Positions 2,201-50,463 of a stretch of DNA of 64,000 nucleotides are shown here, piece after piece. The DNA lies in NCBI GenBank assembly GCA_946699065.1, contig CAMPDV010000021.1, positions 1,426,001 to 1,490,000 of the forward strand, read 5' to 3'. The translations under genes were made by a program, and so were the position numbers. The first letter of the stretch is position 1, and every line of letters begins with the position of its first letter. Under the pieces are notes generated by a model. The model ran no database searches and was not told the origin of the DNA. It saw nothing but the letters and a program-made list of their open reading frames with translations. Source of the stretch: Loxodes magnus. Taxonomy: Eukaryota; Ciliophora; Karyorelictea; Loxodida; Loxodidae.

Positions 2201-2202
2201 AA

Positions 2203-2699: not shown

Positions 2700-2702
2700 T
2701 TT

Positions 2703-14749: not shown

Positions 14750-14752
14750 AAA

Positions 14753-24604: not shown

Positions 24605-24636
24605 ATATTGATTCAGTTTAATATATATTGTGATAT
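24603..24636. repeat. 33-bp motif at the duplication breakpoint
   Basis: TTATATTGATTCAG...TTAATATATATTGTGATAT here matches 51,629-51,660 with a 1-base difference in length. It lies exactly where the coiled-coil duplicate stops. Confidence 0.7.
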
Positions 24637-27600
24637 ATCGAAAGATAGTTAGATAAAATAAGGCTATTAAATTTTTTATTAAGGTGTGCTATATGAATAG
24701 ATAATAATGATTAAATATCTACTTTGATTAGCTTTTTATATACCTTTTCTATTTATTATTTTAAGATGCAACTTAATAATTAATTTTAGCCAATAAGCTT
24801 TTACAGTATTGATTGATGAAATTGGTAAAGGCACAACTTTGCGTTTAGTTTGATACTGATAAGCTTACTACTTAACTTAAAATGTTATTAGACATCATTT
24901 ATTTATAAGAATCTTTTAATATTTATCTAACTCTTAGTTTATGCCTGTGAAGTTTTAATTTACAAGTCTTAGTATTGCAAAAACCCAACAATAAGCGATG
25001 CTTGAATTGATTAAGAGATTAATAATTAGTTTAGTTAGATATAACTTTAAGGTATTTACCATATAATTTAGAGATTATATTACTAAAGTTAGGATATATA
25101 ACTGCTTGCTCAATACTTCCTTTCGTCTGCTTAGTCTAATCCTCCCTTTCTCTTGAAGCAAGCTATTATTACAGATTTAATAGGATCCACTATTAATAAA
25201 AAGTTTAGTAAGCTGAGAATAAAAATCCAAGTTCATAAGTTGTTAACACTTAACCTATATAAATGGATCAGTATATGGAAAAAGTTAAACTATCTAAAAT
25301 AGTTATAATGATTAGTTAAACTCCAAGGAATATTCTTAATGCTAAACATTTTTCATCTACCAACTAAAATTTAAAAGCTTACCTTTTATATTTAAAATAG
25401 ATAAACAGATAAAAGATTAAATGGTAATCACGCAACACTGGAAATAGCAAAAGTTATGAAGTCTTTAAATTATAATTTACCTTTAATGTCTAGTTACTAA
25501 AATACTTACAATAAATTCTTTCGATGTTATTCGTAGTTATTTCTCATGTAGCAAACATAAATGCCATTAAATAATATAATTAAGGACAGACAAGACATCA
25601 AAATGGAAAATCTTGTAAATCTTGATGGAAGATTAACGTTTGAATATGTTAAATTTATTAATAAATTCTCTTGCTAAAAATGAAAAATTACCTGATAAAT
25701 TGTGCAAAAGCTTTAATGCTTCTTGCTAATATTTATATCTGTTTTTTAAGAAACATTGGAGATCTTTCTATATAGTTGCTCCACAAATCTTTTAGAATTA
25801 CTTTCGTTTTCTTAGGAGAAAAATATGTACTAAATTCCTTGTTGCTTCGCTTGCTAAAATTATTATGCTAATTAACTCTTTTATATATTTTATAAATACT
25901 AAAAAGGTCTTCTCAGCTTTTTATACTTATTAGAATCATTAGTTTGAGAGTGATTGTAAAATGCTATTACTTAAATTTTAGCTTTCATTCTAAGTAAAAT
26001 TTAATGAAAAATGTTTAATCCTAATTACATCTGAACTATCTGATACCTTTGATTTACTATTATTATTGCTTTAAGAATAATCTTTTAAATTCTCCTAATA
26101 GTTAGGAAGCTTCTCTATTCTAAACTTCAGTGTCTTTTGAACTTCTTATTGTATCTTAATTAATTGATTTTATGTTAAAGTTAGAATTAAAAATATTTTG
26201 ATTCTGATTTTTTCATTTAATATTGCTACCAAACGTTTATTGCTTGACTACATTCTCTTCCTTAATAAAATGGTCCTCGTCTAATATAATATTTTGGATC
26301 TAATATTTTTATATCTTTTAGTCCTTCCTGACTGTTTTAACTTTTGGCATATTATCTTAAATTTTTCTAAGAGCGCTGCTTTTGATATTTGGATAGTTAC
26401 TTGCAGCTGCTTAGCTAAATGTAGATTTTTCAGTACTAATGAAAAATACTCCAGTTACAATATAAACTATAAACATAAATGCGGCAACACTCGCAATCAA
26501 ATAATTTCTTTCCTAGTTACTTTAAGTAATTATTATATCTTTCTATTCTTAGCTCTTTTTACTAAGTACAAGGTTTGTTGTGAATTCAGAAAGATGAGTA
26601 CAATTGCAAGAAACGGTATTTGCTTCATTATCATATATAGCTCCACAACCTTGTATATTTCAGTCAATCAATTTATTTTCTCTTGAAAAGCAACGAAATT
26701 CTAAGGTTTCATTTCTGACAAGACTCTTCAACTAATCATTTAGGACAACAGGAAAAAATATTATTATATCTTCTGAGATATTAGCTACTTAATATATTTC
26801 ATTCTTATTAGCTTTATTTAGATCTATCAGTCCAGATTATTCAAAGACCACTGTTTGAAATTAAAATTCTGAAATAGATATTTATTTCTTCTTTTTAATA
26901 TTGACTATAATTAAATGCTAGAGGGATCTTCTAATCGAGCATCTGCTAGCAAGAAAGAGTAAATCAACACAGTCAGGATTTATTTCCAAAATCTGCTACA
27001 AACTTTATGTTGGAAAAGAAATTTAAAGCTTTCTCTTTCTAAAGTTTGGGTCCTAAAGGTTAATAACACTTTCAAAGTATTTCCAATCGCATACTTGCTA
27101 GAGGTAAGTAGAAAAATACTTCTGTGATATTTCTGTTCCAGCTATATTGGAACTGCTTGCAGAAAGACTTGATTGGTTAAATCTTAAATTTCTTAGTTTA
27201 AGATTTCCAAAATATCATCAGGCATATTTTCTTAGGATTAGCTGTAATCTTAAATTTATTCTATTATCTGTAGAGCTTTTTGCATATTACCTTGACTTTT
27301 AATTTAATTCAAGACTTCCTCTATTAAAAATCAATACTACTTCAGGATGGTTTTAGAATAATCCATATTATTTATATTTTAGCGAACTTCAAAAGTAGGT
27401 CTAAAATAATTTAAAGATCTTGCTGAGAAGATAGCTGAAACTGACTTTTCCAAAGTCGATTCAAAATAGAAATGTTTCGCTAAATGCTTGATCTGCTTCA
27501 GCTGACAAAATTTAGTATCATAGTTAAATTCATCTATTAGCTGCTTGACAATTGAAAGTTAAAAACTAAAGAGATATGAATCAGAGCTATTATTTATAAA

Positions 27601-28350
27601 TTCTAGTTCTTTGATTAAACTTTGAATGTCACTTTTTAGCTATGGATTTTTGTATACTGATTAAACTAAAGTAGTGTTGTGTACAACTGAACTATTTCCT
27701 AACGCGTCTATAACTTTTAACCTAATTGAAATATCTAAATTTTTATCAGAGTATATTTTAGTAACTAGTGTCTCTGAATTTGATTGTAAACTTAGAGATT
27801 AATCACTTTTATAAAATTGATAAATTAGTGGAAATTATTCATCGATTCAGTCTACTGCTTAGAGAATAAATTAAGTTTCTAAACTAAGTCCAGAAGATGG
27901 AGTTATTAAAAGATAGCCATATTCAGGAGGGCTATTTGCTTAGCATTAGATTTCACACTGTTTGATTTTAGCATTAAAATACTTGTGGCTGTGAAGGTGA
28001 AAGTGTAAAGTGCCTTTGAAGTTAGTTATTCTCCTGAAAAAATAATTGTAGGAGATAAAAAAGAGACTAATGAAGAAGTATTTCATTCATACTAGAGATG
28101 ATTACTTCCAATTTCTTAAACTTCTACTGAAAGTATGTTAACTGATTGTAATTTCAATATCTAATTCTAAGGATTTTTTATTTAAACTGGATTACTCACA
28201 TTTTGGAAAACGAAATCTTAAGTTGTGCTTCGCATTTCTTTGATGCAATTTAAAGAAAGTCTGAGGCTTTATTTATATATCTTTATTTATGTTTCATGCT
28301 TAAATATTAAAAAATTAAATAAGAGCTATTTTTAAGTTTTAGTTACATGT
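24605..28350 (-). CDS. REJ/PKD-like, GPS-containing multi-pass membrane protein (TGA read as Trp)
   Basis: Minus-strand coding trace, approximate ends. A REJ-type region (about 27,790-28,210) has a YE-W-N motif, then NSPPEYGYLLITPSSG and AVD-W-IDEQFPLIYQF. A GPS motif follows at 26,583-26,670 (W-NIQGCG...CNCTHLSEF), then a transmembrane helix (IASVAAFMFIVYIVTGVFF). Further hydrophobic segments lie downstream. REJ plus GPS plus transmembrane segments is the layout of polycystin-1-like proteins, which self-cleave at the GPS; ciliates carry many. The conserved Trp codons at 28,083-28,085, 27,847-27,849 and 26,664-26,666 are TGA; two other Trp are TGG. One apparent frame change near 27,940 could be a real lesion, an intron or an error. 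The start codon was not determined. Confidence 0.65.
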
Positions 28351-30119
28351 AGATCTTAACTTTTAGTGATTTTAAATAAGAAATTAGCTATTAAGTATGA
28401 AATTTAGTAAAGTTATAGCAATTTGTTCAAAATTTAGGAAAAGTGAGTCTGGATTTGAATTAGTTAATTTTAATGAACTTTAATTATTTTTAAGTATTTA
28501 AATTAATTTATTTTTAGATTAAAATAAAACTTTTTTACCACTACTACTCATCCAACCTTTATCAACATTAAAAATAAAAGACTGCATAAAGCAGAGAAAA
28601 TACTCATTAAGGAAAAGGAAATGAGGCTAGCATAAACAAATTAATTTTATATTTAATTTAATAGAATATTTGCTTATAATTATATTTTTACAATCCTTGC
28701 TTCTATAAATATTTATTTATTCTTACTATTTTTGCTGCATATTTTGCTAGTAATATTTTGGTAGCTAGTTATTTTTTATTTTTTATCTAGCTCATTCTAT
28801 ATAAAAATAGGAGTAATTGCTGATATAAGTGATATAATGATTTTCTAACTTTGTGCTGATTAAATATTTTATAATATTTTGATTCTTTTTAAAAATGTTC
28901 TTATTATTCTAGTTCAATCAATCTAAGAATTATTGGCTTTAATTTATCTAAAATATAATTGTTTAGCTTTATTACTTAAATCATTATATAAATTTTAGGA
29001 ATAAGAATAGCGTAATTCTGTTATTTTGATTCTTCAAGATTCTTTCTTAATGATAGCATGATTTTATATGTATTGAAACTAATATAAGTAACTTAAATTT
29101 ATTTATTGTGATCATAAAATATTGGAATTAAGAAATTAAAGCCAGCTATAATAAACTTTTGCTGCTTTATATAGATATCTTATGTTTTAAAGGATTTATT
29201 TTATGTAATTTTTATTTGTTTTATTTACTAATTTGCTATTATGTGGCATTGTTAATGGATTTATCAATAAAATAAAATTAATTTTTCAATTATCAGACTT
29301 ACCGAAGGAATTTATCTTACTTATTTATTTGTTGCTTTTCTCTCTTATTGCCTTTATGCTTCGAGCTATAAAAAGTTAAAAAAATGTATTTTAGCTTATT
29401 ACATAGAAATTTGATAAATATATAAACCAAGAAGGATAAATTTATCGATATTAGAGATAATAAATAAATGCTTTTCTACTTTATCTTTATGTTTTATCAA
29501 TTTAATTAAAAACTATGCCAAATTTACTATTTTCTCAATTTATTCTAAGAAATTTACGCATTTTAGACTTAATTAACTACTTACATAGTTTATTACAGTT
29601 GCAGAAAAGAAATACTAAATCTAATTTATTGGAAGCAGTATAACTAAATAACTAGCCTAGGAACTTGATAAATAAAGAATTCTTTTTATAAAAATATTTT
29701 TCTATGCTTATATTATATTAGATATAGTTAGTTGCTATTCTTTAATTTTCATCCTTTAGACTTGTAAATAGATCATAGTTATCTATTTTAAAATTATTAC
29801 TAAAACTTTTTATATGAAAATGCTTTACTGTTTTAATAATAATTTAACTAGATGCTTACTTTTGGTTAAGAATGATAACTTTGCTTCTTTTGCTTTTGTA
29901 ATTTTAATAATTGTTTAACTAGCTAAATTATTTCTTAGGTATATTTGTCTTTTGTTTAAGCTAGACTATGCATTTTAATTATTTGCTTTTATTTTAAATT
30001 AGAAAATTCTTTATGCGATATTTCTAAAACTAGTAAAGCCACTAATATTTTAGATGATAAGCTAGGATAAAAAACTAGGAAAAATAATAAATAAGACACA
30101 AGTCTAATTTAATACACTC
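28351..30119. other. Gene-poor AT-rich region
   Basis: No supported coding region or RNA. The upstream end of the REJ/GPS gene may reach into its first few hundred bases. Confidence 0.4.
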
Positions 30120-30457
30120 TCAGCAAGCTTGGCTTTATCTCTGCTTACTCTTTTTCGTGTTATACATTTTGAGATAGCATAACTAACAAACTCCCATTGC
30201 ATAATGCGCTCTGTCTTTGTGCTCACATTTAGAAGCAGGTCTTCCTACACCAAGTTTAATATAACAGTTTTTACACAAATTCTTAGCATAATACTTTCGA
30301 AAATAATGCTAGCAATCTGTTATTTGCATAAACTTCCTAGCTTTCCATGTTGAGTTATTTTAGCAGACTCCACCTTAGAAAATGGTTTTGGAAGGTTTAA
30401 AAGCTTAGGCCAGTCTTTATCAAATTGTAAGGATAAATTTTGAAGTAAGGATGGCAT
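30120..30457 (-). pseudogene. Small cysteine-rich protein, copy 1, frameshifted
   Basis: Same gene as 33,510-33,845 and 42,095-42,439: MPSLLQNLSLQFDKDWPKLLNLP at the start and CKNCYIKLGVGRPASKCEH...CQLCYLKMYN at the end. A 1-base deletion near 30,340 (CAACATGGAAAGC, compared with one base more in the others) puts the two halves out of frame. The ATG-to-TGA span is 338 bases, not divisible by three. It is probably inactive, unless the deletion is a sequencing error. The upstream box is intact. Confidence 0.8.
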
Positions 30458-30515
30458 TCCTTGTAGAACATTGGTTGTATCTATCTTCATACTTTTTATA
30501 ATTTGAATAAAGATA

Positions 30516-30544
30516 ATCCTTATAAAGGGACTATTAAACTAAAA
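30516..30544 (-). promoter_or_regulatory. Conserved upstream box, copy 1
   Basis: TATAAAGGGACTATTAAAC and its edges are conserved at all three paralogues, 50-90 bases before the ATG. On the gene strand it contains TTTATAAGG. It is a promoter candidate by conservation only. Confidence 0.55.
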
Positions 30545-33509
30545 GAGTAAGTAAAGCATTTAGTTTAATCTACTTTAATACTTATTTAATATCATGTTAC
30601 ATTTGCTTTAATAGGTATTTAGGAATATCTATTTTATAATTTTGATATTAAAAGTCTATTTAAGGAATTCTAGCCAGCTTACTTTAGTTTATTATACATT
30701 ATGGTTTATTAATTATAATCTATAAAATTTTAATTGTTATATAAAGATAGAAATGAGTAGCTAGTTAGAGTAAAAGGGAGAAATAATAATTACATTTAAT
30801 AGTGTAAAAAATAACTTAATTGAGTACTTGACTAATATAAAATTAAGATTCCAGAGTAGCACTTAAATACTTCTTATTTAAAAGTTTGAAATAATTGATA
30901 TAAAAAGCTTTAGAGTTTTACTATTTACTAATTAATCTTTAACTTTCTGCTATTTTTGCAATGAATAGAATAAGTATGCCTCTTAACTATGCTTATTTAA
31001 TTTATAAGAGAAATGATTAAAAATAGATGGTTTTTTAATTTGAGCTAAATTAATAAAAATATAAAATAGAATAGATATTCCTTTTATTTTTCTAAGGTAA
31101 GCATGCTTAAATTTATGTATTTATATTTAAATTAAATTATATTAATGCATATTATTTGTATAGTGGAAATAAACTATTGCTAGAGATATTGAATGAATAC
31201 TTTATAATACCTAGCTTATAAATTTAATTAAGCTACTTAATTGTATAGAGTAAATTAAAGGTAGAGCATAAATTAATACTTCTTATATCTTGATTGGTAT
31301 TTTTAATAGCATCAACAATTACGCTTATTCTAGTTAAACTTTATTTTAAGTAATAAATGTAATGCTTCATTTAATCCTTTAAATAGAGTAATTTATTATT
31401 TTAGTTTCATCTTCTAAATAATAATTAAGATTGGTTATGTTTTAATATGCTACTATAGCCTCATTGGCTACACAAATAATAATAGTAGGTTTCTTTAATC
31501 TATTATATAAGATTTTGAAAGATCTGTTTTAATAATTAGTATTAAAGTTAAACCTTTTAACAATATTTATTCTTTAAGCTAGCTAGAAAAACATAATTAA
31601 CTGGATCCAATTTACTACAAGTGTTCTAGCTTAGCAAAAGCTACATTTAAGTCTAACATCTTACATTAAATTTATTTTTATTTTATTAGTAAATTAATAA
31701 AGAAATTATCGAAAGTCATAAGATTAAAACTGCAAGCATTGTAATAATCATCCTTAAGTTGAATTTTAAGATAAATTAGCACCTTTACTATGAAATTTTA
31801 AATGGTTAGATTTGAAGAAAAAAAGTAAACAAGTTAGCTTTAATTAAATAAATTATTAGGATTATCGAAAATTTCTTTTTATTTTAATCTATATTTGATT
31901 AAGGATGACTATAGAGGATTTTTAATATAGTGTGTTAATATCATTTTGTATAAAGAAATATAATTAAAATCTAATAATAAGGTTTTTTAATTTACTCAAT
32001 AACTGTTAATACTCTTTAATATGAAATGAAAGTTATTTCATATTGCTAGTGTTAAAATATTGAAAACTAAATACAAGGCTCATTATACTTTTTATACTCA
32101 TAAATGAAAAATTAAATATCTTAAAAATAAATTTATTCATATGATATTTAAATTTTCTATCCCACTAGCTTTATAAACTTAAATAAAGTAATTATTAAAA
32201 TTGAATTATCAGAACTTGGAAATAGTCTATAGAGAATAAAAGCTTTATAACTAAAATACCAAATAAATATAATTTTATACTTAGAAAATGTTAAATCTTT
32301 CCTTAATAATTGTATGAAAATATTTGTAATTTACTCTCTTGAATGATATATAATTCTCCTTTTTTAATGTTTTAGAAATTTAAAATTAAATTTACTAATT
32401 ATTTAATGTAATTTTATCATCAATTATTATCCTAGCTATTTTTCATTTTACACTATAAATAGTAAGGATTCTATAATCCAATAGCTAAATTTCAAAGTAG
32501 CCTCTTTATTTATTTTAAAATTTTACTAAAATGAGAAAAAGTATTGGCATATTTAGATGAATATGCAATAGGATAAATAGAAATAATAATGAAAATTATG
32601 TATATATAAGAGTACCTAAAGCAAACTTTAAACTAAACTTTAATTAATAACTTAATATGCTAGATTTTTTTAATGTAATGGTATATATTTTTATTATAGT
32701 CCATTTACTATTTACTCTCTAGTAATTATTTAAAATAGGAAAATAATAATTTAGATAGCTAAATAATGATTATACATCCTATTTCTTTATTTTAAGATGC
32801 TTACATTACTATTGTTTATTCTAATTAATTTTAATAAATATTTGATATATAATCCTATGATACTATATTAATATTCTTTATGCTAATGCTTTATGAACTT
32901 CCTCTCTTATTTTAATCATACTTAGATCTAAATAAATCTCATTGTCTTGTAACTTTAATCTATTTTCTTTATTTTTTAATTCAATAAAATATTAGAATAG
33001 CACTAGCACAGGCTAAAACAGAGTAAAATAGAATTAATGCCATCTATTAGATAGCTAAATAGTTAGATAATTGATGTTATTTAAGAAAGCTAACTTATTA
33101 TCACTATAATTACATGCTATTTTTATTATATTTCATTCATTTTACTCTTTAAGTATATTTGATCTATTTCACTATTACTCTTTATACTTTATTATAAATT
33201 AGATAAAATGATACCTTTTTTATTTGTCTTAGCCTTAATCATAATCTTTACAAATATTAGCTTTTTATACTTCATTATAGTTAGAATGCTATTCTTAATT
33301 AGATGGAATTTGGTATCTTTCAGAATTTGTATACAGGTTTTAGTAAATGATTAATGATTATGTTTCCTTAAATGATTTTAGAATTTTTCTTTATTTTTAA
33401 TTTAAAATACTAAAATAACTTAAAGTATATGATAAGTTCTAAAACTAGTAAGAAAGATATTTTACCTGGGATCAAAATAACAATAAATAAACCATAGTTC
33501 TATTTTCAT
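30545..33509. other. Gene-poor AT-rich region
   Basis: About 3 kb with no supported gene, RNA or tandem repeat. AGCT-containing hexamers (TAGCTA, AAGCTT) recur by eye. Confidence 0.4.
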
Positions 33510-33845
33510 TCACTCTTTCCATACTTCGACCATTCTCTTTTTCATGTTGTATATTCTGAGGTAGCATAACTAACAAATTCCCATTGCATAATGCGCTCTG
33601 TCAGTGTGCTCGCATTTATAAGCAGGTCTTCCTATTCCAAGTTTAATATAACAGTTTCTACACAAATTCTTAGCATAATGCTTTCGAAAATAATGCTAGC
33701 AATCTGTTATTTACATAAGCTTCCTAGCTTTTCCAGGTTGAATTATTTTACCACCTTTTTCCTTAGGAAATGGCTTTGGAAGGTTTAAAACTCTAGGCCA
33801 GTCTTGATAAAATTGTAAGGATAGATTTCGAAGTAAGGAGGGCAT
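33510..33845 (-). CDS. Small cysteine-rich (putative zinc-binding) protein, copy 2, intact
   Basis: 111 codons from ATG to TGA. The N-terminus is MPSLLRNLSLQFYQDWPRVLNLPKPF. The core has TDCQHYFRKHYAKNLCRNCY, then GRPAYKCEH, DRAHYAMGICQLCYLRIY, and a basic tail. Cysteines and histidines fall in two similar half-repeats (C-x-H...YAKNLC-x2-CY and C-x-H...YAMGIC-x2-CY), which is what a pair of zinc sites would look like. I know similar CxH...YAkG-C-x2-CY repeats in unnamed ciliate and plant proteins, but no function. Gln at several sites is TAA or TAG; both Trp are TGG; stop is TGA. Copies flank it at 30.1 and 42.1 kb. The start is set by conservation of the first residues in all copies. Confidence 0.85.
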
Positions 33846-33895
33846 TCCTTACATTCTTAGAATCTAGGTTGATAGTTAATTTTAAATTAAAGATA

Positions 33896-33924
33896 ATCCT
33901 TATAAAGGGACTATTAAACTAAAA
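33896..33924 (-). promoter_or_regulatory. Conserved upstream box, copy 2
   Basis: Same box as at 30,516 and 42,499, starting 51 bases before the ATG. Sequence further upstream no longer matches the other copies, which narrows the conserved part to this box. Confidence 0.6.
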
Positions 33925-35896
33925 TATACAGTATACGTTTATTTATTAAATAAGCTACCTTTACATAGGTTTGCTTACTGTTTTAATTATCATATATATA
34001 ATTTTATTAATTATGTCTTAATACAACTATGATCTTTATTAAGTTGTTAGTGTCTTTAATCCATAAGATTTATTATAGACTGGAGTTAAGTAATGAGGAT
34101 ATTGTATTTAACATATAAAATAATTAGAAAATAGATTAAGGGAAAGATATATAGTTAGAGAATTAAAGTGATAAGGTTGGTAAGATTATAAGGAATTTAC
34201 TAATGTAAAAAAGAAAAAACTAGAGTGTAAAATACACTATTAATATCTGATTTGTATAAAAGAGCTTTAATTTAGTATCCATACATATAGTTAGAAGAAC
34301 TAGTAAGCTATTTAAACTTCTTAACATTAGTTAATATATAAGCATTATCAGCTAAAATAAATTAGATAACTAGCACTCATTAGCCAGTTTATTAAATGCT
34401 AAAATAAATATTCTAGAAAGTAAACTGAAGAGCAAAATGAATAAAAAGGTTTATAAATAGATTTATTTATTAAAATAAGAATATGCTAATAAGCTTATGT
34501 TAGATTGTATTGCTTGGACTTAGTGTTTGAAGATAATAACCTAGTTTATTATATGAATAAAAGATATATTAATATGACTGTATGACTTATATCTGAGTAT
34601 GTTTATATAATCTTAAAATAAATAGCTAAATTAGCTGCTTAATAATACAAGTATTAAGCGAGATTGAGAGAATAAAGGATTTAAGTAAACTCTTAAGGTT
34701 AAGTGGTTGTTTTACTAATTATGTTGATTATTGTAAAATGAATTTAAATAGTTAGCAAAGTATGAAACTAGCAGCTAATTTAATATATTGTATAATCTTT
34801 TGAAGTATGAGTATTAATAACTATTCTTAAAGAAAAGGATTATTAGAATTTAAAATAGCAGCACTTTATTAAATTAGTCATAACTAAATTTATTCCAAAC
34901 GATGCTAAACTAAGAGTTAGTATTCTTTACATTTGCTTTGTTAGATTTGCTAGAGTCTTCAAAATAAATAAATAGCTTAGTTATATAATTCTAAGCAATG
35001 CTTGTAAGTAAACTTATTGCTTATATGATATCGTAAGAAATGTTTATTCCTTGCTGCAATTAAATTAGATCAATCATTTAAATTCCAAACAAATCAAATT
35101 TATATTCTCTTTAGTATTTTTCAATTTACCTAGCTTATTAAGAGTTTCATATATTAGTCCATTATTATATCTGCTATTCAGTCTTATAAACCATTCAACT
35201 AGAATCATTTAAGCAAACCATTTAACTTATCCCACTACTAAGCAATACCAATTAAGCATCTTAAGTATACCTATTTTATTTTAGCGAATACAAAGAAAAC
35301 TTATTTAAGTCTAAATTGCTTTAGAATACTACCAAACAAAAAGAACTATTGTACTAGTAAGAATTAGAACTTTAAATAGGAATTCTGCAGTTAAATATAA
35401 AAGTACCAAGCAGATTAAGAAACTCTTTAGTAACTAAATTAATAAGCAAAACTAAATTTAATGAAGAACATTTTAACTACTTACTAATTCTAAAGCAAAT
35501 CCTTCAAATTCAATCTAACTACAAGTAAGCTACAAAACAACAATCAAACTATTATCTAGAAACATTTAATTACCAGAACTATCTTTTGAAAAGAAGACCT
35601 TAGTTAACTATTAGAACAAATCAATTATTAAAATTGTCTAACAAATAAAAGGGCTAGTATAGAAAAGGCATTATAATACCATAAATAAATCAAAGAGCAG
35701 CAAGAGATAAAGTTGAATAAGTATAAATACAAAATCTTTGGAAAAAATAGAACAATAACTCAATAAAATAATAGCTAGGGATAAACCTCAAATATTTAAA
35801 AGTGCTTTTAAACAAAAGAATAAGCCTTTGAAAATATTTACAATAAAAAGCAGGGCTTCAATAAGAGTATATATCTCTTATTGGACAGAGCTGAAA
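33925..35896. other. Gene-poor AT-rich region
   Basis: No supported gene; Gln/Lys-type coding composition only begins near 35,900. Confidence 0.4.
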
Positions 35897-38800
35897 TGAA
35901 AAAAAGATTTAAATTCTTATAAATTGCAGTTAAGCTATGTAGAATAAGAAATATAAAAGCTTAAAAATTAGAGTTAGGAATATTAAAAGATAAAGAAAAA
36001 TAAATTTTGAGAAATAAGAAAATAAAATTAAATTAAGATCTAAAGAGCTAAAAAAAGACAGAATTTTAGGTATACAAACAATAAGCTGAAGGATTATAAT
36101 AAAATAAATAGAATAAAATAAATGAAAAAATAAATTATTTTCAGTTATAAAAGCAAATAGAAGAATTATAATCTTAAAACGAAAAAATTTAAGAGTGAAA
36201 TTAAGCGAATATAAGATAAAAATATAAGCAATTAAAATGAAACTAATAAATTATGGAAACAACTTTAAGAAATCTAGAAGGAAGTGAAAGGGGCAGAGTA
36301 AATATAATAATAAAAATTGAGTTAAGTAAAGATTTGATTAGGAATTTAGGTTATAATACTTGAAAGTAATCTTAGAAGTATTATTTGGGGTAAATTAAAA
36401 AATGATGAAATAAAATGGGCAATAATTAGAATTTAATGTCTGAGCTTAAAATAAGAAAAATTAACGTAATACCATAAAGGAGATTATATTACAAAAAGAT
36501 AAAATCTAGTAAAGCGAAATTTAAAATTAAGCCAATAAATTAAGTTTTTAAAAAGTAAGACCAAGTATCTAGCAGCCTAAATAGATGTGTAAACCAAAAA
36601 TATAGAAGAGAAAGAAGTCTAAGAAAGGAAAAAAAAAAGATGAGAATAGTTAATTAAAACCAGAGTTAGAAATTTTCTTTCACTTATAGTAGTAAATTTA
36701 TTATGAGTAGAAGTAAAAAATTTAACTCTAGGAAAACCTTGATTAACTTCATTAAGATTAAAAATATTAAGAAAGAAATGGAAAAAAAGGAAGAAAGATT
36801 AAAGAAAATCTTAAAGCATTAAAATAACAAAAAGAAATACTGCTAAAATAAATGCAAGAAAAAGAGTAATATCAGTCTTAGAAAAAGTACGAAATCAATA
36901 GAAAAATTTAAGGAAAATTTTGAAGATAAAGAGGAAAATAAAGTCCTATTACAATCATAAACTCTGAATTATATTATTAAAACAAAGAACTAAAAGGTTA
37001 AAACAATAAAACTTAATAAAAATATTTTTTTCTAAATAAATAGCTAAGTAAAGAAATAGAAAACTTTAAGACTTTGAATTAATAAAAAGAAGCAGAATAT
37101 TAGAAGTAGAAATAATAAATATTACAATTATAGTAAGAAAAAATAATCTAGAAGCATAAATAAATAAAATTAAAATTATTTAAGGTATAAATTGAAGAAA
37201 TTAGATTGGAAAAAATTGAATTAGAAAAGTAGACATAAATATAATGGGATAAAGAGAAGTAGGTAAAAGGAATAAACAGCAAATCAGCTCTAGATAAAGA
37301 GCAGTTATAAAGAAAAGGCACTGAAAGATTAAATAAATAAACTTAAGACTTATAAAAATAAAAAGGAAATTAGCAAACTAGATGTAAGGAATATAAGAGT
37401 AAATTAAAAAAAAATTTACTTGCTTTAACAGCTAACTTAAAGTTAAAGCACAAGAGAAGATCAGAAATAAAATAAAGAAAAGCAGCTCAATTAATAAAAA
37501 AGCAACATAAAGAAATAGTATGAAGAATAATATTAATATTTCAATCAAAAGGTCTATCTCTATAAAAAAGCTAAATAATGAGAACTTAAGTTAAATAACT
37601 TAGAGAAAAGAAAGCAAAATCAATGGTACCAGCTTTCTTTCATCTAAGAATAAAAATATACTAAGAGAACAGACATAATAGCTGATACAAGTAAGCAGAG
37701 AACTAAAAGAGCAAGTATCAGATATTTAAAAACAATTCTAAGATTAAAAATAAGCGATGAAGTAATCTAGTAGGAAAAATTGCAGCTAGGCAATAAGGCA
37801 TAAAAGTTATAAAGTGACATAATTGAAGAATAAAAAAAGATATTTATCAACAGGAAAAAATTGATATGCGGCATTAAAAAAGCATTCGTTTGCAGCAACA
37901 ATTAGATAAAAGAAAAAAAGCTTTTGATTAAAGTCGTAAATTATAAAATAAGCACGATTAATAGATTAAGAAATGAAGGAAAATAATCAGAGACTTGAAA
38001 AATAAATTCTAAAATTATCCTAAATAAAAGCCAATCAGAGATAAAAAACTGTAATTACAAAGAGTAAACTAAAAATTCAAAAAAAGATGAAGCCTTTAGC
38101 AGATGAAAACAAATAGAATAAAGTGAAGCAAAATAGTTTTTAAAAAATCTAAATGAAAATTTAAAGTTAATATAAGCTCTAAAGAAGAAAAATAAACTCT
38201 ATAAAATGAATCAATTATCTAATATCTAAATTATTTATATATTTGAATAAATAAAAGGAAAATAATTCAGAAAGATTGCTATAAAATAAAAAGAGCAAAC
38301 TAGCCCAAAAAAAATAAAGAAAATGAAAAGACGGAGAAGATAATCAAAATTCTTAGCCTCATTAAATTAATTAGAAACAACATCATTTTTAAAATAGAAG
38401 AGCTATACACTTAAGTGGCTTAGTATAATTAAGAAAATATATTATTAGATTAAAAATCTAGAAACTAATATCTAAAAAATTAACATTGAAGCAGAAAAAA
38501 AAATAGAGGAAGAAAATTAGCCTTTTAAAATCTTAAATAAAGTTATAAGAAAAATATAATATTTATAGATCTAAATATAGAATCTAAAATTCCTTTAAAA
38601 TAAAACAAAGGAAACAAAGTAAGAAACTGATTAAGTACTTAAAAGAGTGATAATAAAGCATAATAATACAATCCTAAATTAGCAAAAATATAAACTAGAT
38701 ATATAAAGATAAGAATATTTTAGACTAATAGGAACTCACAAATGTTCTAAACTAGATAATTGAATAACGAAAAGTATAGCATCATAATTTTTAGGAAGAA

Positions 38801-38950
38801 GACTTTGCTTTAATAAAATAAAAGATAACTTATTTAAGAGATAATATTAATAAAGGAAGAAAAATAAAAACTTGAAAAAATAAAAAAGTTTGGTGAGATG
38901 ATGCAGAAAAATGAAAATTATTAAAAAAATACGAAAAAGTAATAAAAATT
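35897..38950 (+). pseudogene. Degraded coiled-coil coding region
   Basis: The plus strand shows long Gln/Lys/Glu/Leu-rich open stretches using TAA/TAG for Gln, for example LQKQIEELQSQNEKIQE (about 36,140-36,190) and EEIRLEKIELEKQTQIQWDKEK (about 37,195-37,260). Heptad-like spacing suggests a long coiled coil, in style like the protein at 58,987. The frame changes several times, and TGA appears at places where Trp is not obviously expected, so I read it as a decaying gene. A multi-exon gene with very short introns is possible. No zinc finger or motor domain was seen. Function unknown. Confidence 0.45.
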
Positions 38951-39570
38951 TACAGTGAAATATTAAACTTAAAACATAATTAGAGATATAATTTAAAAAT
39001 TAATTTTTTATATAATTAAAAATAAATCAGATCTTTTAAAAGAAGCATCCAATGCGTTTTAACTTAAATTTAAACTTTTTATTTAAAAATTTAACTCTAA
39101 AATAAAATTTTTATATTTATTAAGTTTTGGTTTTAAATAAGCTTAAATTTAATATAAGATAAACAATTATTAAAATATGAATATACATGTATAAAAATCT
39201 ATAGCTGCAAGCTTTATTTAATTTAAAAACCTTAGCAAGAGATTAATTAAAAATAATTAATTTTTTTTATTACTGTTATATTTATCAAAATTAGAATATT
39301 TGAGTTATTGTTGTCTGATCTTATGAGATATTGATTTTAACGAAAGTAAAAATAGAAAAAATAAAAAATAAGATATTGAGAAAAAACAAAATAAACGTAA
39401 TTATAAATATCACTAAATCTTTATAAAACTCTGAGAACTTTTTTAACTTAATTTTCTAACTAAAAAATCTAAATTACTAATCCAATTCTAGTTTAAATTT
39501 TATATAGAGATTAATATATTTTAAGAGGGTTAAGCATATAAAGACTAACTCTTTAATAAGTATGAGAATA
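38951..39570. other. AT-rich, no gene seen
   Basis: Spacer between two converging coding traces; nothing supported. Confidence 0.4.
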
Positions 39571-40461
39571 TCAGAAAACTTTTAAATAAAATGAAACTAA
39601 ATATTCTTTAATTTCTTCAAATTAAACCACGAATTGTCTAATAATCTCCGTATACAATGCACCCTGTTGGTTTTTCTCCTCCCACTTTTCTAACTTTTCT
39701 CATTTAAAGAGTAAATTAATTTATCTAAATCATTTGCAATAAATCTAGTTAGTATCTTGACTAATTATTTAAAAACTTAAAAAATAAGCTCCCTTTTCAT
39801 AAGCTTTGCTTATTTGATTCTGTAAATAGGGATCATAATCTTTTCAGATGTTTTAATCTTATCATTACCATTGAGCAATATTCACTCCATATAATGGAAT
39901 TCATTGGATTTTTCTTGTTTGATTAGATTAAATATTAATTTGCTACCATTGCAATGTATCAATTAGATATTAATTCCCATTTATATTGACAATAAATTGT
40001 TAAACTTATAAATTTTTAGCTATGTCGATTATAGCGATAATTTCATTATCATACCTTTCAAGTTATCCATAATCATTCTGCCATTAAAATACTCCATCAA
40101 TTTATGAATTGTTTCTTACTCTCGGAAATGTCTTTTCTTGTTTCTCTATTTCCATTGGAGTTTCTTATGAAGGCTTCATCAGGTTTTCTTCTATTAATTT
40201 GAGTCTAGAATCTAATTTTACTCAGTTATTCTTGTCTTGATCTTGCATTACTCAAATATCATTCTCTAAACTTGTCATTTGCTCATAAACTCCGACTTTA
40301 GCTCTTCGGTCTACCATATGGGCTTCATCATCATCTTCATGATTTATCAAATCCTGACTTAATACAAACTTCTCTTCTTTCTGGGAGTTTAATTCCTCTT
40401 CGAGTTTTTTTATGTTTCTAATAAACTGGTGGATCAGCTGTTTCATCTACTATGAGTCCAT
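39571..40461 (-). CDS. Two-WWE-domain protein with coiled-coil N-terminus (TGA read as Trp)
   Basis: 297 codons from the first ATG of this frame (40,461) to TGA at 39,571; the frame stays open for more than 100 bases upstream, so the start is uncertain. The N-terminus has a helical segment (IRNIKKLEEELNSQKEEK). The first WWE domain runs from FQWQNDYGQLERYDNE through VNINGNQYLIDTLQWQQIN to the RKI end. A second begins QWQWQDQNIWKDYDPYLQNQ with SKAYEKG. WWE domains bind ADP-ribose chains or ubiquitin-pathway partners in other eukaryotes. In the second domain the last two tryptophans of the W-x-W...W signature are TGA (39,862-39,864 and 39,844-39,846). The upstream leader resembles the LINE 5' end, so it may be a LINE-associated ORF rather than a plain host gene. 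Confidence 0.65.
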
Positions 40462-40870
40462 TTGTTCTATTTCGGTATTGTCTAAATCAAAGGTAATAGG
40501 ATCTATATTGAATTATCGTACTTTACCTTCTTCGTTTATTTTTTTCTTTATTATTTTTCTTTATTATTTTTATTAATTATTTGAATGGTCTCTTTTTCGG
40601 TTTTCAATGGAGGTCTTGAGTGCTGGTTAACTTTTCTGTTCTGAATTTTTATCTCAGTTCTTATTTGTCTTTTGATAGAAGGGATCCACTTTATTTTAAT
40701 TTATAGGAGTTAGTATTTTTTATAAGTTCTTTAATCTATTAGATAGTTCTGGTTATTTATTAAGAAGAGGGTTAAGTTGAAGAAGACGTGGTGAGAATAT
40801 GAACTTCTGGTTTCTCTCCTGTTTTGAGGAGGTGGTAAAAAAAGGGTTCTTGAAACCAGGCATTTTATAT
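40462..40870 (-). mobile_element. LINE-like 5' leader of the WWE ORF
   Basis: On minus, from about 40,865: TTTCAAGAACCCTTTTTT, then ACCACCTCCTCAAAAC, AGGAGAGAAA and CACGTCTTC. The LINE 5' end at 44,985-45,075 has the same elements in the same order (TTCAAGAAGGG, ACCACCTCCTCAGAG, AGGAGAGAAA, CACGTCTTTG). No LINE ORF2 follows downstream, so this is either the 5' part of a related LINE or a leader captured by another gene. Confidence 0.7.
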
Positions 40871-42094
40871 TATATAATTAGAATATAATTATTTAAGGAT
40901 ATAATAATCTCTTAATGTAAGTTATTTAAAATTCTTACTTAAATAGCTATACTTAATTGGTTTGCTTATAGTTATTTTATTGATATTTCTAAATATTTTA
41001 ATATTCTTCCTAATTTAGCTAGCTAATAATTCTCCTTTGGTAAATCTCTTTTTGCTAAGGTATTTTGAATTTTATATATAAAGAAATAATAAAAACCTTA
41101 TTTGATCGTTTATTTATTGGAAAAGCAGAGATTTGAAAGCTTTAATATTCTAAATAATTTAAGCCTAAGTAGTTAGATAATTTACAATCTAATATCTTAT
41201 AGTTCTAATAATGTAAAGTAGAAATAAGAAATTAGATATATAGATCATTAAATAAATAGCACTTAGTCAAAATTAAGGGTAATTAAATAGACTCTTAGAT
41301 AGATACAGTACCATAATATGCTTAGAAGGAAAAATAGCCTTATTAGTATTTAATTAATTAATTTACTATTTAGTCTCTTTTAAGTTGCTTAATATAGGAA
41401 ATAATAATCTATATGTCTTCTTAAAATAAGCCAATTAAGTATTATTTTACTCTTAAATATCTTTAGCTTGTAGCTGAATTTAATAACTATGGTTCTATTT
41501 AAATAATTGTAATAAACAATTTATATAAGAATCAACTATAACCTATAATGTATTTATCCTCCTTTATTTTAAGATTTAGCTTCATTCTACTCTTATTTCC
41601 ATTGCTTTAACATACTTAGCTTTAAATTAAATAACTAACTAGTAATTCAAATCTTCTTTCTTAATAAGGATTCATTTTATCCTACAAATATTTACAAATT
41701 ATAAGCTTAGAATAGAGAAGGAGAAAATCATTAAGTCAAAACCACTTAAATAAATAAAGCATTGCTAAATGTTTATCCTTTGAGTGTTATTTTATAATTA
41801 TATATCTACTTGTTTGATACTTATAGAATATCTTAAATCAATTTATTTCATTTATGTTCTCTATGTACTTTTAATACTTTTTAAGGTTTTAACTATCAAA
41901 ATTATCTATTAGGTATATTTATCTTTGTTTAAGTTAGGCTATACTTTTTAATTCTTTATTTTTATTTCAGAATAGAAAATTCTTTATGTCTATGATATCT
42001 CTTAAACTAGTAAGAATAATTATGATATTTTAGATGATATAGCCAGGATAAAAAATTAGAAATAAGAATAAATAAAGCATAGTTCTATTTTCAT
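40871..42094. other. Gene-poor AT-rich region
   Basis: No supported gene or RNA. Confidence 0.4.
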
Positions 42095-42439
42095 TCACTC
42101 TTTGCATGCTTGACTTTTTCTCTGCTTACTCTTTTTCGTGTTGTACATTTTGAGATAGCATAACTAACAAACTCCCATTGCATAATGCGCTCTGTCTTTG
42201 TGCTCACATTTAGAAGCAGGTCTTCCTATTCCAAGTTTTATATAGCAGTTTTTACACAAATTCTTAGCATAGTGCTTGCGAAAATAATGCTAGCAATCTG
42301 TTATTTACATAAACTTCCTAGCTTTTTTAGGCTGAGTTGTTTTATTTCCTTTTGTCTTGGAAAAGGGGCTTGGAAGGTTTAAAACTCTAGGCCAGTCTTT
42401 TTAAAATTGTAGCGATAGATTTCGAAGTAAGGAGGGCAT
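42095..42439 (-). CDS. Small cysteine-rich (putative zinc-binding) protein, copy 3, intact
   Basis: 115 codons from ATG (42,439) to TGA. MPSLLRNLSLQFQKDWPRVLN opens it. Then come TDCQHYFRKHYAKNLCKNCY, GRPASKCEHKDRAHYAMG, VCQLCYLKMY and a basic tail (KKSKQRKSQACKE). All cysteines and histidines of copy 2 are kept while the linker around residues 25-40 differs, which argues for selection on the zinc sites. Gln is TAA/TAG at four or more sites, Trp is TGG, stop is TGA. The upstream 100 bases resemble copy 1 more than copy 2. Function unknown; a DNA- or RNA-binding role is only a guess. Confidence 0.85.
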
Positions 42440-42498
42440 TCCTTGTAGAACATTGGTTGTATCTATCTTCATACTTTTTATAATTTGAATAAAGATGA

Positions 42499-42527
42499 AT
42501 CCTTATAAAGGGACTATTAAACTAAAA
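42499..42527 (-). promoter_or_regulatory. Conserved upstream box, copy 3
   Basis: Same core (TATAAAGGGACTATTAAAC) 60 bases before the ATG. The further upstream sequence (AGTTTAATCTACTTTAATAC) is also shared with copy 1. Confidence 0.6.
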
Positions 42528-44982
42528 GAGTAATATAAGTATAATGCTTAGTTTAATCTACTTTAATACTTATTAAGAGTCATATTTACTTGTTTAGTTA
42601 TGTTTAACCATATCATTTTATTAATTAAGTCCTAAAGCTTAGACGAAACATTCAAGAAATTATTTAGTTACCTTTTTATTCGTAAGGTTGAATATAGGTT
42701 TGACTTAGCTAATAAAAACTCAATATAATAAACATATAGAAGCCTAATAAAAAGATTAAGTAGAGAATGGAAGTTAAAAGGATGGGAAGGTTTAAAGAGA
42801 TTTACTAATATAAAATAGAAATAATTAGAGAGTAAAATACACTTATTAATATCTGATTTGTATAAAAGTGTTTAAATTAAGCATTCCATTATAAATAGCT
42901 AGACTAGCATTATTTTTAAACTTATTAGCCTTTGCTAGTTTAACCTAATTTATAAAATACCATAAGCTTAATTGTTACTATTTAGTTATTTGGCTGACTA
43001 AGGAATTCTTTTTAGTCTACTTAGTAGACTTAGATATGATAAGCATGAAAATATAAATATGATATATTATTAAATTAAGATATGCATGGAATCATAATAA
43101 GTAGATTAGCTTCTTTCTAATTAAGATTTTAGTATTTAACTTAAGTTTAGCTAAATGCAATGAAGAGAAAATTAGTTTTATGGTTATAGACTGTCGGTAA
43201 GATTTGTAGGGTAATTTATAAACTTAATTACTAAAGATAAATAAAGAACTCTTATTTGAATAGCATCTTTAGCTCTTATTATAAAAGAAATGCCTTTACT
43301 ATTAATTATATGATTTAAAGGTTTAAATAATCTAGTTGTGTTTGCTTTATTCAATACATAAGCTTATATTATTATGCTAAAGCATGCTATAGATAAATTA
43401 CTAATGCATTAGTTATTAAGTTAATTTAGGAGTTATGGAAGTATCCATTAATGAATTATTATTGTAAAACTAATTCCTGTATTAGACTTTAATAATTATG
43501 GTAGCTTGCAAAATATTAGGTTCATAACTAACTAAAATTTACTTTAATAAATCTTAAAGTATTTATTTCTTTACTGGGGCAAAGTTTTTAAATTAAAATC
43601 CCTAAAATTAGAAAGAGTAGAGCAACTAGACTTTATTTATAATTATAAAGCTTTATCTTTAATGATTGATATACCTTTAATTTAATTAGCTTTTATTAAT
43701 ACTATGATTGTATTTTAATTTTTATGTTCTTAATTAGATTTACTATTTCAGATATATTCTAGTAAAAGTATCTAAATGTATTAGCTTGATGTTTATAAAA
43801 CTTGTACTTTCTTATAGTTTAATAAGCAACTTACTTTAGGGTTACTAATAAGCTTTTTCTAAGAACATTCTTATGTCTGTTGCTAGATAATAGATTAAGT
43901 CTTAAATAATTAAAGAGTTCTAATTAGAACTCCGCTAATTTCACATTGATAGCTAATTAAGTACAACTTGCTTATATGACTAACATTTATCCAATTCAAA
44001 CATAAGGAAGATTGAAGAGAAGATTAGAAATGTTCAAGCTGAATAATGAAAGATCACAAAGAAAAGAAGATGCTAAAGTACCTTTATAAAAAGAAATAGA
44101 GCAAGGAGAATAATTTTACGCTTGAAGAAATTAAAAATGTACTTAGCATATTACATTCAACGTAATTATAAAATTATGTTCTAATATTAAGAATTCTGGA
44201 ACTTTTATATCTATTATTATTCTTATTTAGTATATTTAGAATCCTTTACATTCTCATTAACTTTAATCATATATCCTTATAGAAATATTATAACTTAAAA
44301 ATTTAATTCTTAGAGATAAGCATAAAGGAAAGAATAAGTAGCTACTTAAATATTAACCTAAATTTTAACTTTATATCAGATATTCTCCTGTTTTTTATAA
44401 ATTCAATACTTTAAATATTCTTTGCACATGATTTCTTATATATTTACATATCTAAATAAACTTAGATTCATAATCGATATATCTAAATTATAGAAAAGTC
44501 TATTTTGCTCTTCTTAATCTCTTTCACTAAAGTAAAATAAACTTAAATTTTCTAGTAACTATAAAATGCTTTTTTCTAAAGCTTTAACCTTAAACCTGCA
44601 ATAGTTATTAAATTTCTAAAAGCATTTTAAAGGATAAATAAAAGCATTGTAATTAAGATTTTAAAAGCTAACTTTATTCATTTAGATTCCATAAAATATT
44701 TCTAAAAGCCTTATATAGTTATTAATTAATCTAAGCTATAACTAATTAATAAACTTATGATATTTAGACTGGAACTAGAACTTTTCTTAGTGTAACTAAG
44801 TTAAATTCTACTTGTTAAGGAAAGTTATTTTTTATTTGAAATAATTGAAATAAGGTGTTTGATAGCATTTCTTTTAACTAACTTAATATAAGAGATAGTT
44901 AATAAATTTAAATTAGCTAAGCATTTGATTAAGTTTATAAATTCTATTTAAAGAACAAAATACATATATTAAATATATATTA
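42528..44982. other. Gene-poor AT-rich region
   Basis: No supported gene or RNA. Confidence 0.4.
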
Positions 44983-45329
44983 AAAAATGGTTAGCTTCAA
45001 GAAGGGTTTTTATACCACCTCCTCAGAGTAGGAGAGAAAACTGAAGCGCTTTCTTTTACCACGTCTTTGCTTTAATTATTCCAACCTTCTTTATTATGCA
45101 TGGAAACCAGACTAATAATGCAAGACCTCAGACTACGCAGGACCAAACTAACTGACCGAACGAACACGAAATAATAGAACGAATAATAGAAAAAAATAGC
45201 AATATACCCATGATTGGTCGAACTGTACTAAAAGGAGGAGCACAAAATAAGAAAGGAATGTAGCAAAAAAAGTAAACAACCTAAGTAATAATTTAACAAA
45301 ATAATGAACAACTCATTTCAACCAACGTC

Positions 45330-46080
45330 CCTGAAGAATAAATGTAAAGGGTCTACTAAAATGCCTATGATGATTTATCAGAAATGGTGGCCGCAATTTA
45401 CTTTAACCATTACTTGGAAAACACTGATTTAGTAGAGAAAAAGGCCAAAGACTAAGAAGTTATACAAGTGTTTAGAAATCAAATATGGAAGTACGGACAA
45501 GCAGTGGCGAAGTTCATAGTGAAATAAAACGGAATTGTATACGTGGTATTTAACAATGAAGAAAGATACTAACATTTCACTTAATTCAGGGAATGAACAT
45601 TCAGAGGAGTTAGAATTCCTATCTAAGCTAGAAACTAATTGGAATATTTTGACATTCATAACTACCCAATTTACTTCATAATTAACGAATACTCAAATAT
45701 GAAGGAAGTAATGGAAATAATAAGATAATATGGAAAATCAAGAGGAGAGATATAGCATACATATCCAAACAAACAATGCTAACAGGGAGCAGTGTAGTGT
45801 ACTTAAATTTAAAGGACATAGACGAAGCAAAGAGGATAACAGAAGTAAAGATCTGAACGGAAACAACATGAGAATGCAGCACTCAGTAAATTTTATCTGC
45901 TGCCTATGTAAATTGAAAGGGCACACAGACCAGCAATGCAGAAGGGTAGAAGCAGCAAAAAGGAAAAAGCTACATACAAGAGAATTAGAAATACTTGAAG
46001 GAGAAGTTAAATTAACAATAAACAAACCAGAATTAAAAGCAAATAAAGCAAATAAGAGGATAATTGAAGAAGAAGAGTAA
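45330..46080 (+). pseudogene. LINE ORF1: nucleic-acid-binding protein with CCHC knuckle
   Basis: The first part encodes a folded-looking segment (NGIVYVVFNNEERYQHF, then RE-W-TFRGVRIPI with TGA at 45,594-45,596, then YPIYFIINEY) that resembles RRM-like folds of LINE ORF1 proteins. The second part has a C-x2-C-x4-H-x4-C zinc knuckle (CCLCKLKGHTDQQC, about 45,897-45,938) and a Lys/Glu-rich tail ending EEEE. The two parts are in different frames, with a shift between about 45,740 and 45,880. ORF1 proteins coat LINE RNA and act as chaperones. The start was not fixed. Confidence 0.7.
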
Positions 46081-46149
46081 ATTATTATAAAGGAAGCAAG
46101 GGAAGAAGAGAAAGAAATAAAACGAGGAGAATAGAAAAATAATTAAAAC

Positions 46150-49100
46150 AACTAAACAATTAAATAATAAAAAGTTTTTTATGCTAAAAGAATAAATAAG
46201 AATTATTTTTCATCAAAATGGAATTGGACATATGTAAGACAGAGGGATAGAGAAATGTTCAAATAATTAAATAAAATAGAAAACTATCAACTAAATAATA
46301 AGATATACCATAAAGCAAATTAGAGAAAAGGATAGGATAGGTGATGGTAAAAACGCTAAATCCTAACAAAAGAAATAAGAAATAAACAAAATAGTATAAT
46401 GGAGTATGTAAGGAAAAACGTAAATAAAGGAATAAAACAAAAAGAAATAGAACAAACTCAAGAAGAAAAAGAATAACATGCAAGATAAAAGTGAGAAGAA
46501 AGAAGTAAATTGAAGCAAACTTCAATGAGAATGTACTATGCTAAGAAACCGATAAACAAAAATGAACAATTATCCAACTTCAACTAATAGGAAAAGGAAA
46601 AAGAAGAAGATTAGAATAGATAAGAAGAAGGAAAAGGTAGATAATAAGATGAAAAAGACAAAAAAGGGGAAAGAACTAATAAAGAAAATAATATGGAAGC
46701 ATAGAATGATAGATAAGAAGAAGAAAAGGTGGAGAAGGAAGATGAATAAAAAGAAGAATAAGGTGAAGAGGAAGTAGAGGGAATGAGTGTAAAAAAAGAT
46801 TAAGAATAAGTCATAAAAATAGGGACAGCAAATGTTAGAGAGTAAGAAGTGCAAAAGAAGCACTAGCCAAATTCATGACTCAAAAAAGTATCCACATAAT
46901 GGCAATATAAGAAATTTAGATTGAAGACTAAAAAGATATGTGTAATATAGCAGGATATAAAAACTTAATAAAAGTGGGATCAAAATTAGGAAAAGGAGTA
47001 GCATTCTATATTAGAAACGATATATGTATGGAGATCAGAGAGATATAGAATGAAGTAAACCAAATGACGCTCTTTGGAGGAGCGAGAGTAATGGCAATAG
47101 AAATAATGAAATAATTAGCAGCAATAAATGTCTACGCTCCTGTTGCAAATAACAACGAACAGTATGAGCCTTTCTATAATTTAGTGAATGAATTTAAATT
47201 TAAACTATAAGCAATAGAAAAAGGACTTAATATAATGATAATAGGAGACTGAAATGCCCACATAGAAAAATGACTGCCAAAGAAAATAAACTCAGCAGGA
47301 AAGAGAATGACACAGTTTATGGAACAGAATAATTTAATATGCCTAGACCCAACTGAAATAGGTAACTTTATTCACTAAAGCAATGAGTATAAAATAGATT
47401 ACTTTTTAATTGAAGAGAGAATGAGAGAAAAGGTGTTAAAAAGTGATTTTTATTACTCATACGTAATAGGTGACCATAGGCCTGGTATTATATAGGTAAA
47501 GATGGGTAAAGAAGTAAGAAAGCCACAAAAGATAGCAAAAATAAACTACCTACTATTAAAGAAAAAAGAGATATAAGAAATATTTGAAAGATTTATACAA
47601 GAAAATCTCTAAGAAGAAGAAATTGATAACCTAAACGGCACATAGACTTATAAATGATGAAAGAAAAAGATATAAGAAGGAGTTTAAATGGTATGTGGAA
47701 AATTCAAAACATAAAACTCTAAGATATATAAATATTCAGAAACAACAAAATAGTATAATAAAATCTTTAGAAAATGCAGCAAACAATTAAAATAAAGGGT
47801 AAAGAACAGAGAACAAATAAATGAAAATCAATAAATTGAGAATCAAAGAGAATACCAAAGAGTAAGATAAGAATATATTTAATCAAGAAAAAAAGATAAA
47901 AGAAACTAACTAAACCTATTTATGGACAATGTAAATAAAGGAAGTCTAACAGATATGTGGAAGAAACTAAAAAGCTTACTTAATAGAAAAAATAATTAAT
48001 GAGTACCCTTATTAAAAGAAGATGTTAATACTTTCAGAAACGAATGATAGCAGTTATATGAAGATACTGATAATACGCTACCAACTAAATTCTTAAACAA
48101 GAGACAAATAGTGGTAAACGAATATGAAATTTGAGAAAACATTAATTAATTTGCAAAATGAAAAGCAGCAGGACCTGATGAAATTTAAGTAGGAACAATT
48201 TTAGCTGGTGGGAAAAATTAATATAAGTAACTTTCAAAATGATAGCTAAGATGATTTAAGAGGGAGTAATACCTTATGAGATGAAACAACAATACATAAT
48301 ACTAATATACAAAAAAGGAAGATAGATGAACCCGATGAACTATCGACCAATCTCTTTATTGAATCATGCTTTAAAAATTGTAGACATATGAATTTTCTAG
48401 CAACTATAAGGATATCTGTATAATGATGAAAGGGAATATTAATATGGCTTTAAAAAAGGAAAATCATGCTCACTATAAATTTTCAACCTAAGAACAGTAT
48501 AGGAATGATAAATACGGAACAAAAAAGATGTTTTCGTAATATTTGCTGATATTAAAAAAGCGTACGACTCGGTGCAAAGAAAAGATATATGATAAATCCT
48601 AAACGATCTAAAAGTACCGGAATAGATAATTAAACTTCTAGCAAACTTCTACTGTGAAGAAGAAATTAAACTGAAAGGCAATTATCAAATAGCAAAATCA
48701 TTCGCGACAAATAAAGGACTAAAACAGGGAAGCATAACGTTGCCAAGACTATTTAACTTAATAATAGCAAGACTTCTCCATAGCTTGGAAGATTAAGAGC
48801 TAGGAATTACGATAGACTTTAAAAACTAAGAGGGATGAACACAAGAAATATATGCAAGATGTTTTTCATACGCAGATGACCTAGCCTTAATAAGTGGATG
48901 AGAATAATTAGAGGAAGTAATCAAAAATTTAACCTCATGGGCAGAAAAATACAAACTGAAAATTGCAGATAAAACAAAATGAATGATATGAAAAGCAACA
49001 GAAAATAGAAACTGAGAAAATATAGGCAATACTATTGAGGTGGGAAACTTAAGAATCGAAAGAGTAACGTCCTTTTAGTACCTAGGGCATATAATAGAAG

Positions 49101-50420: not shown

Positions 50421-50429
50421 TTTATTAAA

Positions 50430-50460: not shown

Positions 50461-50463
50461 TAT

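Follow-up and report, generated by a model that had tools for sequence, protein, structure and literature searches.

In-frame UGA at tryptophan positions in a macronuclear segment of Loxodes magnus, in agreement with the published karyorelict code

Can a codon that ends genes also be read through within them? The question is raised by a 64,000-nucleotide (nt) stretch of Loxodes magnus DNA (the window, positions 1,426,001-1,490,000 of contig C21; GC content 19-29% in 4-kb steps), in which TGA recurs inside recognizable protein domains. A first-pass annotation of the window proposed that UGA is decoded as tryptophan (Trp) besides serving as stop, with UAA and UAG read as glutamine (Gln); this proposal agrees with the published code, with protein domains and gene ends, and with the tRNA genes found in genome searches that spanned 705,730,643 bases on 7,843 contigs. 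We put the probability at roughly 0.96 that the window is macronuclear DNA of L. magnus using NCBI code 27, i.e. UAA/UAG as Gln and UGA as Trp or stop. The sense-UGA reading is real and was correctly named, yet it is not new, because the code and the probable tRNA mechanism are both in print for the same organism. Seah 2022 reportedly described the table 27 code in Loxodes. The 706-Mbp macronuclear assembly of L. magnus is annotated with table 27, and the genome paper gives UGA as Trp and as the sole stop (PMC11441545). An ambiguous code was described earlier in Parduczia and Condylostoma (Swart 2016; PMC4967479), and the tRNA-Trp of Loxodes with a 4-bp anticodon stem is attributed to Swart and colleagues (PMC13092985; PMC12005148). 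Set against the karyorelict table 27, our material is alike in UAA/UAG for Gln and UGA for both Trp and stop, with no difference found; that published system belongs to this very organism, and the assembly described is in all probability the one that contains the window.

The proposal had been built on eight TGA coordinates, all of which do carry TGA on one strand or the other, with seven of the eight in the frame of the motif concerned. The one out of frame is the GPS coordinate (26,664), the TGA at the GPS Trp being placed at 26,660-26,662 on the minus strand. In the REJ domain the TGA at 27,847 is in frame at a Trp column, and when TGA was read ten ways (nine residues and X), Trp scored highest with 47.1 bits, followed by Phe (44.4) and Tyr (43.6), the readings below Phe spanning 38.4-43.6 and including X (39.7), Gln (39.2) and Arg (38.8). 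REJ and GPS occupy different minus-strand frames and are presumably separated by a short intron. Both TGAs cited for the WWE region (39,862 and 39,844) hold as well, being in frame of the domain and located at the signature Trp residues of the second WWE according to the family consensus. The choice of sites was selective, since further in-frame TGAs at 39,901, 39,730 and 39,700 had been omitted; these presumably fall outside the recognized Trp columns of the family. With the WWE_5 model, Trp scored 20.8 vs. 15.1 for the runner-up among the five of ten readings listed. For the endonuclease of a long interspersed nuclear element (LINE), where TGA was read five ways, Trp again led with 41.3 bits, ahead of Phe (39.7), Leu (34.4), X (32.1) and Arg (30.3). 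Internal UGA is Trp in table 27, and here REJ, WWE_5 and the endonuclease score best with Trp, with TGA also at the GPS Trp; in table 6, UGA is never sense, and here TGA lies in frame inside conserved domains. In addition, the REJ, GPS and WWE stretches stay open in frame around TGA. We take the TGAs at the Trp sites of these three coding stretches to be sense UGAs. With TGA masked as X, WWE and the endonuclease found no relatives among solved structures.

Beyond the window, 136 kinase domains were scored out of 5,592 first-look candidates; 91 of them contain in-frame TGA (157 TGAs in total), or about 1.2 per domain, vs. about 4.3-4.7 expected from base composition alone. Counted by frame, the LINE reverse transcriptase (RT) core has eight in-frame TGAs vs. 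six and six in the two other sense frames, and WWE five vs. one and seven. The corresponding counts are one vs. zero and six for REJ, one vs. zero and four for GPS, and two vs. seven and nine for the endonuclease, so that among the domain stretches a clear shortage of coding-frame TGA is confined to the endonuclease, the stretches being too short for more. At gene ends, all nine histone H4 loci found fit a pattern in which TRR comes after the conserved C-terminus; the seven readable ones all end in TGA, even though the pattern also permitted TAA, TAG and TGG. A double meaning of TGA is supported by its in-frame presence in 91 of 136 kinase domains and by its terminal position in seven of seven readable H4 genes.

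The two eRF1 loci, assigned from motifs (L032 and L033, on contig C196), point the same way. Each copy has a 436-codon frame up to the first TGA, which lies beyond the conserved tail, and contains 20 or 21 UAA/UAG (UAR) codons, among them the TAA or TAG that encodes the Gln of the GGQ motif. With this UAR codon, and with tRNA genes bearing UUA and CUA anticodons present, UAA/UAG appear as Gln; likewise H4 ends and eRF1 tails, a small sample, show UGA as the only stop. Both copies carry RAQNIKS, vs. the TASNIKS of most eukaryotes, and Phe in place of the Tyr of YxCxxxF, a replacement reported to narrow stop recognition to UGA. The top eRF1_1 match genome-wide (L031) was set aside, as it resembles pelota/Dom34 rather than eRF1. 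Past the eRF1 stop TGA (from nt 2764), the following five codons contain two more in-frame TGAs (L032) or one (L033), which gives the impression of retained back-up stops.

These gene ends also bear on a Condylostoma-like code (table 28), in which UAA and UAG would additionally be stops near the mRNA end. All three codons are sense in both codes, and coding UAA is depleted ahead of stops in L. magnus (PMC11441545), which is in keeping with table 28. However, the seven readable H4 ends, a small sample, include no UAA or UAG, and the sole stop named for this genome is UGA (PMC11441545). We consider table 28 extremely improbable for this genome and retain table 27.

Table 1. Positions of the domain and LINE features of the window in which TGA was read.
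Feature	Position	Strand	Remarks
REJ domain	27622..27960	-	Pfam PF02010, E 8.9e-11; lone in-frame TGA 27847-27849 at 'AVD-W' column
GPS motif	26579..26668	-	PF01825, 18.8 bits, below the 22.5 cut-off; TGA 26660-26662 in 'LIDwNIQGC'
Double WWE region	39700..40095	-	PF02825, E 6.3e-8, two stretches; TGAs 39862 and 39844 in second WWE
LINE copy A	2719..7685	-	TGA at 5930; identity to copy B (45492-50489) 88.7%
Mirror arm of part of copy A	11654..14750	+	100% inverted repeat of 2706-5802; contains 12430 TGA
LINE endonuclease, copy B	46854..47483	+	PF14529 (Exo_endo_phos_2), E 1.2e-8
LINE linker, copy B	47700..48212	+	TGA 48000, 48045, 48132 and 48159 (K-W-KAAGPD), common to copy A
LINE RT core, copy B	48311..49096	+	RVT_1, E 1.1e-29; frame differs from linker

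Half of the eight coordinates came from LINE sequence; for the L. magnus assembly about 2,700 RVT_1 and about 1,200 Exo_endo_phos_2 copies are given (PMC11441545). These four sites represent only two distinct copies, as 5,930 belongs to copy A and 12,430 to its mirror arm (Table 1). The TGAs in GD-W-N (5,930 and 47,250) are in the motif frame of an endonuclease that scores best with Trp; those in K-W-KAAGPD (12,430 and 48,159) are in the motif frame too. Across 5 kb, copies A (7685-2719) and B differ by many single-base indels, with A/G and C/T as the commonest differences, and an excess of third-position changes is mild at most (differences at positions 1/2/3: 23/26/37 in the endonuclease frame, 19/11/18 in the linker and 31/24/41 in the RT frame). 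Within 656 compared codons, in three coding segments that we delimited ourselves, TGA occurs in one or both copies at 15 sites; 12 are TGA in both, including 47250 of the endonuclease, and the other three pair TGA with TGG, TAA or AGA, one each, TGA 47271 of copy B being opposite TAA in copy A. The 12 sites common to both copies are thus older than the copies. No TGG site is shared in these 656 codons. The single-base indels and an RT core that disfavors Trp weaken the LINE copies as proof of sense UGA; on their own, they cannot tell sense UGA from decay. We take some LINE TGAs to have been inherited from the source element and others to lie in decayed sequence. An exclusive or nearly exclusive use of UGA for Trp in the LINEs of Loxodes, unlike eRF1 with its TGG, is an idea we consider unlikely despite the 12 shared TGA and no shared TGG; if true, a LINE relying on inefficient UGA decoding would be kept at low expression or would need a UGA-permissive cell state.

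Several observations weigh against reading internal UGA as Trp: 1) scored as a whole, WWE puts Phe (37.6 bits) level with Trp (37.5), followed by Tyr (36.8) and Cys (36.5), the rest being at 27.7-33.2, including X (28.6) and Gln (27.7); 2) Trp is the lowest of five readings in the RT core, at 108.9 bits (X 110.3, Arg 110.5, Phe 111.2, Leu 111.8), where TGA is also no rarer in the coding frame than elsewhere; 3) the RT core with TGA masked as X did find relatives among solved structures, and in five LINE-1-type chain alignments, judged by eye and at low identity, no masked column was Trp; 4) LINE TGA sites are paired with AGA and TAA, as given above; 5) all four Trp residues of each eRF1 copy are TGG; 6) out of 150 tubulin rows, the 30 best have no TGA; and 7) the kinase count is one of in-frame TGA, not of the residue at it. 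In short, Trp, or an aromatic residue, is favored in REJ, WWE and the endonuclease but not in the RT core. As eRF1 Trp codons are all TGG and the best tubulin rows are free of TGA, some conserved genes avoid TGA. Among the weaker tubulin rows listed, nearly all have one to three TGAs by eye; at C441:147748-175110 there are tubulin-domain copies, spaced 3,342 bp apart, with one in-frame TGA apiece, unlike the TGA-free 30 best rows.

Some of these points suit decay, by which the TGA-bearing stretches would be pseudogenes under table 6, with UGA as stop only and TGA at Trp sites through a single TGG-to-TGA transition. The first-pass annotation had dismissed decay on the grounds that the families are unrelated. 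This argument fails, since one G-to-A change turns TGG into TGA and decay too would favor Trp positions. The many single-base indels between LINE copies, the only mild third-position excess, the predominance of A/G and C/T changes and the RT-core TGAs that do not favor Trp all fit decay. Against it are the TGAs in 91 of 136 kinase domains, the REJ, GPS and WWE frames that continue around TGA, the 12 LINE sites that predate the two copies, and the published annotation of the genome, which employs sense UGA (PMC11441545). Decay does play a part in the LINE copies; it explains the kinases poorly, because many long, high-scoring domains contain TGA. As an explanation of the whole it has, in our estimate, almost no chance of being right, and we return to sense UGA and to the tRNA that might read it.

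A tRNA-Trp with a UCA anticodon had been anticipated, and this expectation was not borne out: a UCA-only pattern gave no exact match genome-wide (one pattern, by which divergent genes would be missed), and the tRNA-Trp found has CCA and a 4-bp anticodon stem. A pattern allowing CCA or UCA, with as many as three mismatches tolerated, gave 348 matches vs. one for its backwards control; the 100 listed are exact, all CCA, and located on contigs C67 and C148. The number of exact tRNA-Trp(CCA) copies is at least 100 and, as implied by the UCA-pattern search, at most 125. The loci fetched from the C67 array have an A.C mismatch on top of the anticodon stem with four pairs intact beneath; among 18 distinct predicted Trp sequences of this array, the top pair is A.C in 17 and A.A in one, with the other four pairs kept. 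The Ala, Lys, Pro, Val, UUA and CUA tRNAs seen have five anticodon-stem pairs each, the exception being an odd 91-nt 'Glu' prediction, seemingly on Trp sequence. For the UUA/CUA anticodons, with the same tolerance, the pattern gave 620 matches vs. 123 for its backwards control, and the 100 listed are exact; from the pattern we take these to be tRNA-Gln. An apparent excess in tRNA-Trp copy number was dropped as a candidate, the Trp pattern giving 348 matches vs. 276 for Val. The genes lie in tandem arrays (C67, C148, C130 and C214), with spacings of ~188 bp (C67) and 241 bp (C148) for Trp, 588 bp for CUA and ~275 bp for UUA.

Could UGA instead be read by a cognate tRNA-Trp(UCA), be it a divergent nuclear one or a mitochondrial import, rather than by the CCA tRNA with the 4-bp stem? 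Ciliate mitochondria encode tRNA-Trp(UCA) (PMC4967479), and with a single pattern searched, a gene changed further would escape. At one mismatch the UCA pattern hit 126 places, the 100 listed being all CCA save one GCA. On the other hand, this pattern was able to pick up CCA copies with a single mismatch but gave no exact UCA anywhere in the genome, and the stem mismatch is restricted to Trp among the tRNA families seen. We therefore hold a cognate UCA tRNA to be improbable, if less so than decay or table 28, and favor the CCA tRNA.

Taken as a mechanism, UAA and UAG would be read by the UUA- and CUA-anticodon tRNAs, presumably charged with Gln, and internal UGA as Trp, most likely via tRNA-Trp(CCA), the only tRNA-Trp found. 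The top-pair mismatch would cut its anticodon stem to 4 bp and may thereby permit near-cognate pairing with UGA; this effect of a loosened stem is suggested by analogy with published tests on Blastocrithidia and Condylostoma tRNAs. At a true gene end, just ahead of a short 3' untranslated region and the poly-A tail, eRF1 would outcompete the tRNA, and UGA would terminate. Termination governed by proximity of the poly-A tail has been published for the karyorelict code (PMC11441545), from which we infer that it operates in Loxodes. The nearest relatives of this arrangement are 1) Condylostoma magnum (table 28), alike in having all three codons also as sense and a 4-bp-stem tRNA-Trp(CCA) (PMC13092985), its genes, however, ending at UAA/UAG as well (PMC4967479), whereas only UGA ends were seen here; and 2) Blastocrithidia (Kachale 2023, as cited in PMC12153298), where UGA is likewise Trp via a tRNA-Trp(CCA) with the top stem pair broken, but UAR is Glu and UAA is stop, and where the opened pair is written 26C.42U (PMC13092985) vs. 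A.C in Loxodes. Codes in which every codon is potentially sense, with termination set by context, challenge the notion of fixed stop codons; here such a code was recovered clearly and independently from raw sequence, together with its tRNA genes and release factor, which adds little to published work on the same organism.

Turning to the remainder of the window, seven tRNA genes (five Val and two Pro) lie at 11070-11544, 20697-21172, 22493-22565, 58630-58702 and 62686-62758, several of them in duplicated segments. Ten large open reading frames have no clear domain, their weak coiled-coil matches all being under the cut-offs. An inverted repeat of 99% identity pairs 22275-24609 with 60642-62976; a long open reading frame overlaps each arm, with weak coiled-coil matches, all under Pfam cut-offs. 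A second inverted repeat (1-5802 and 11654-17451) is 100% complementary, in two adjoining pieces around a spacer of ~5.9 kb, and represents either a foldback of recent origin or a join made during assembly; its spacer houses a (TCTCTCTTT)n array at 8150-8938.

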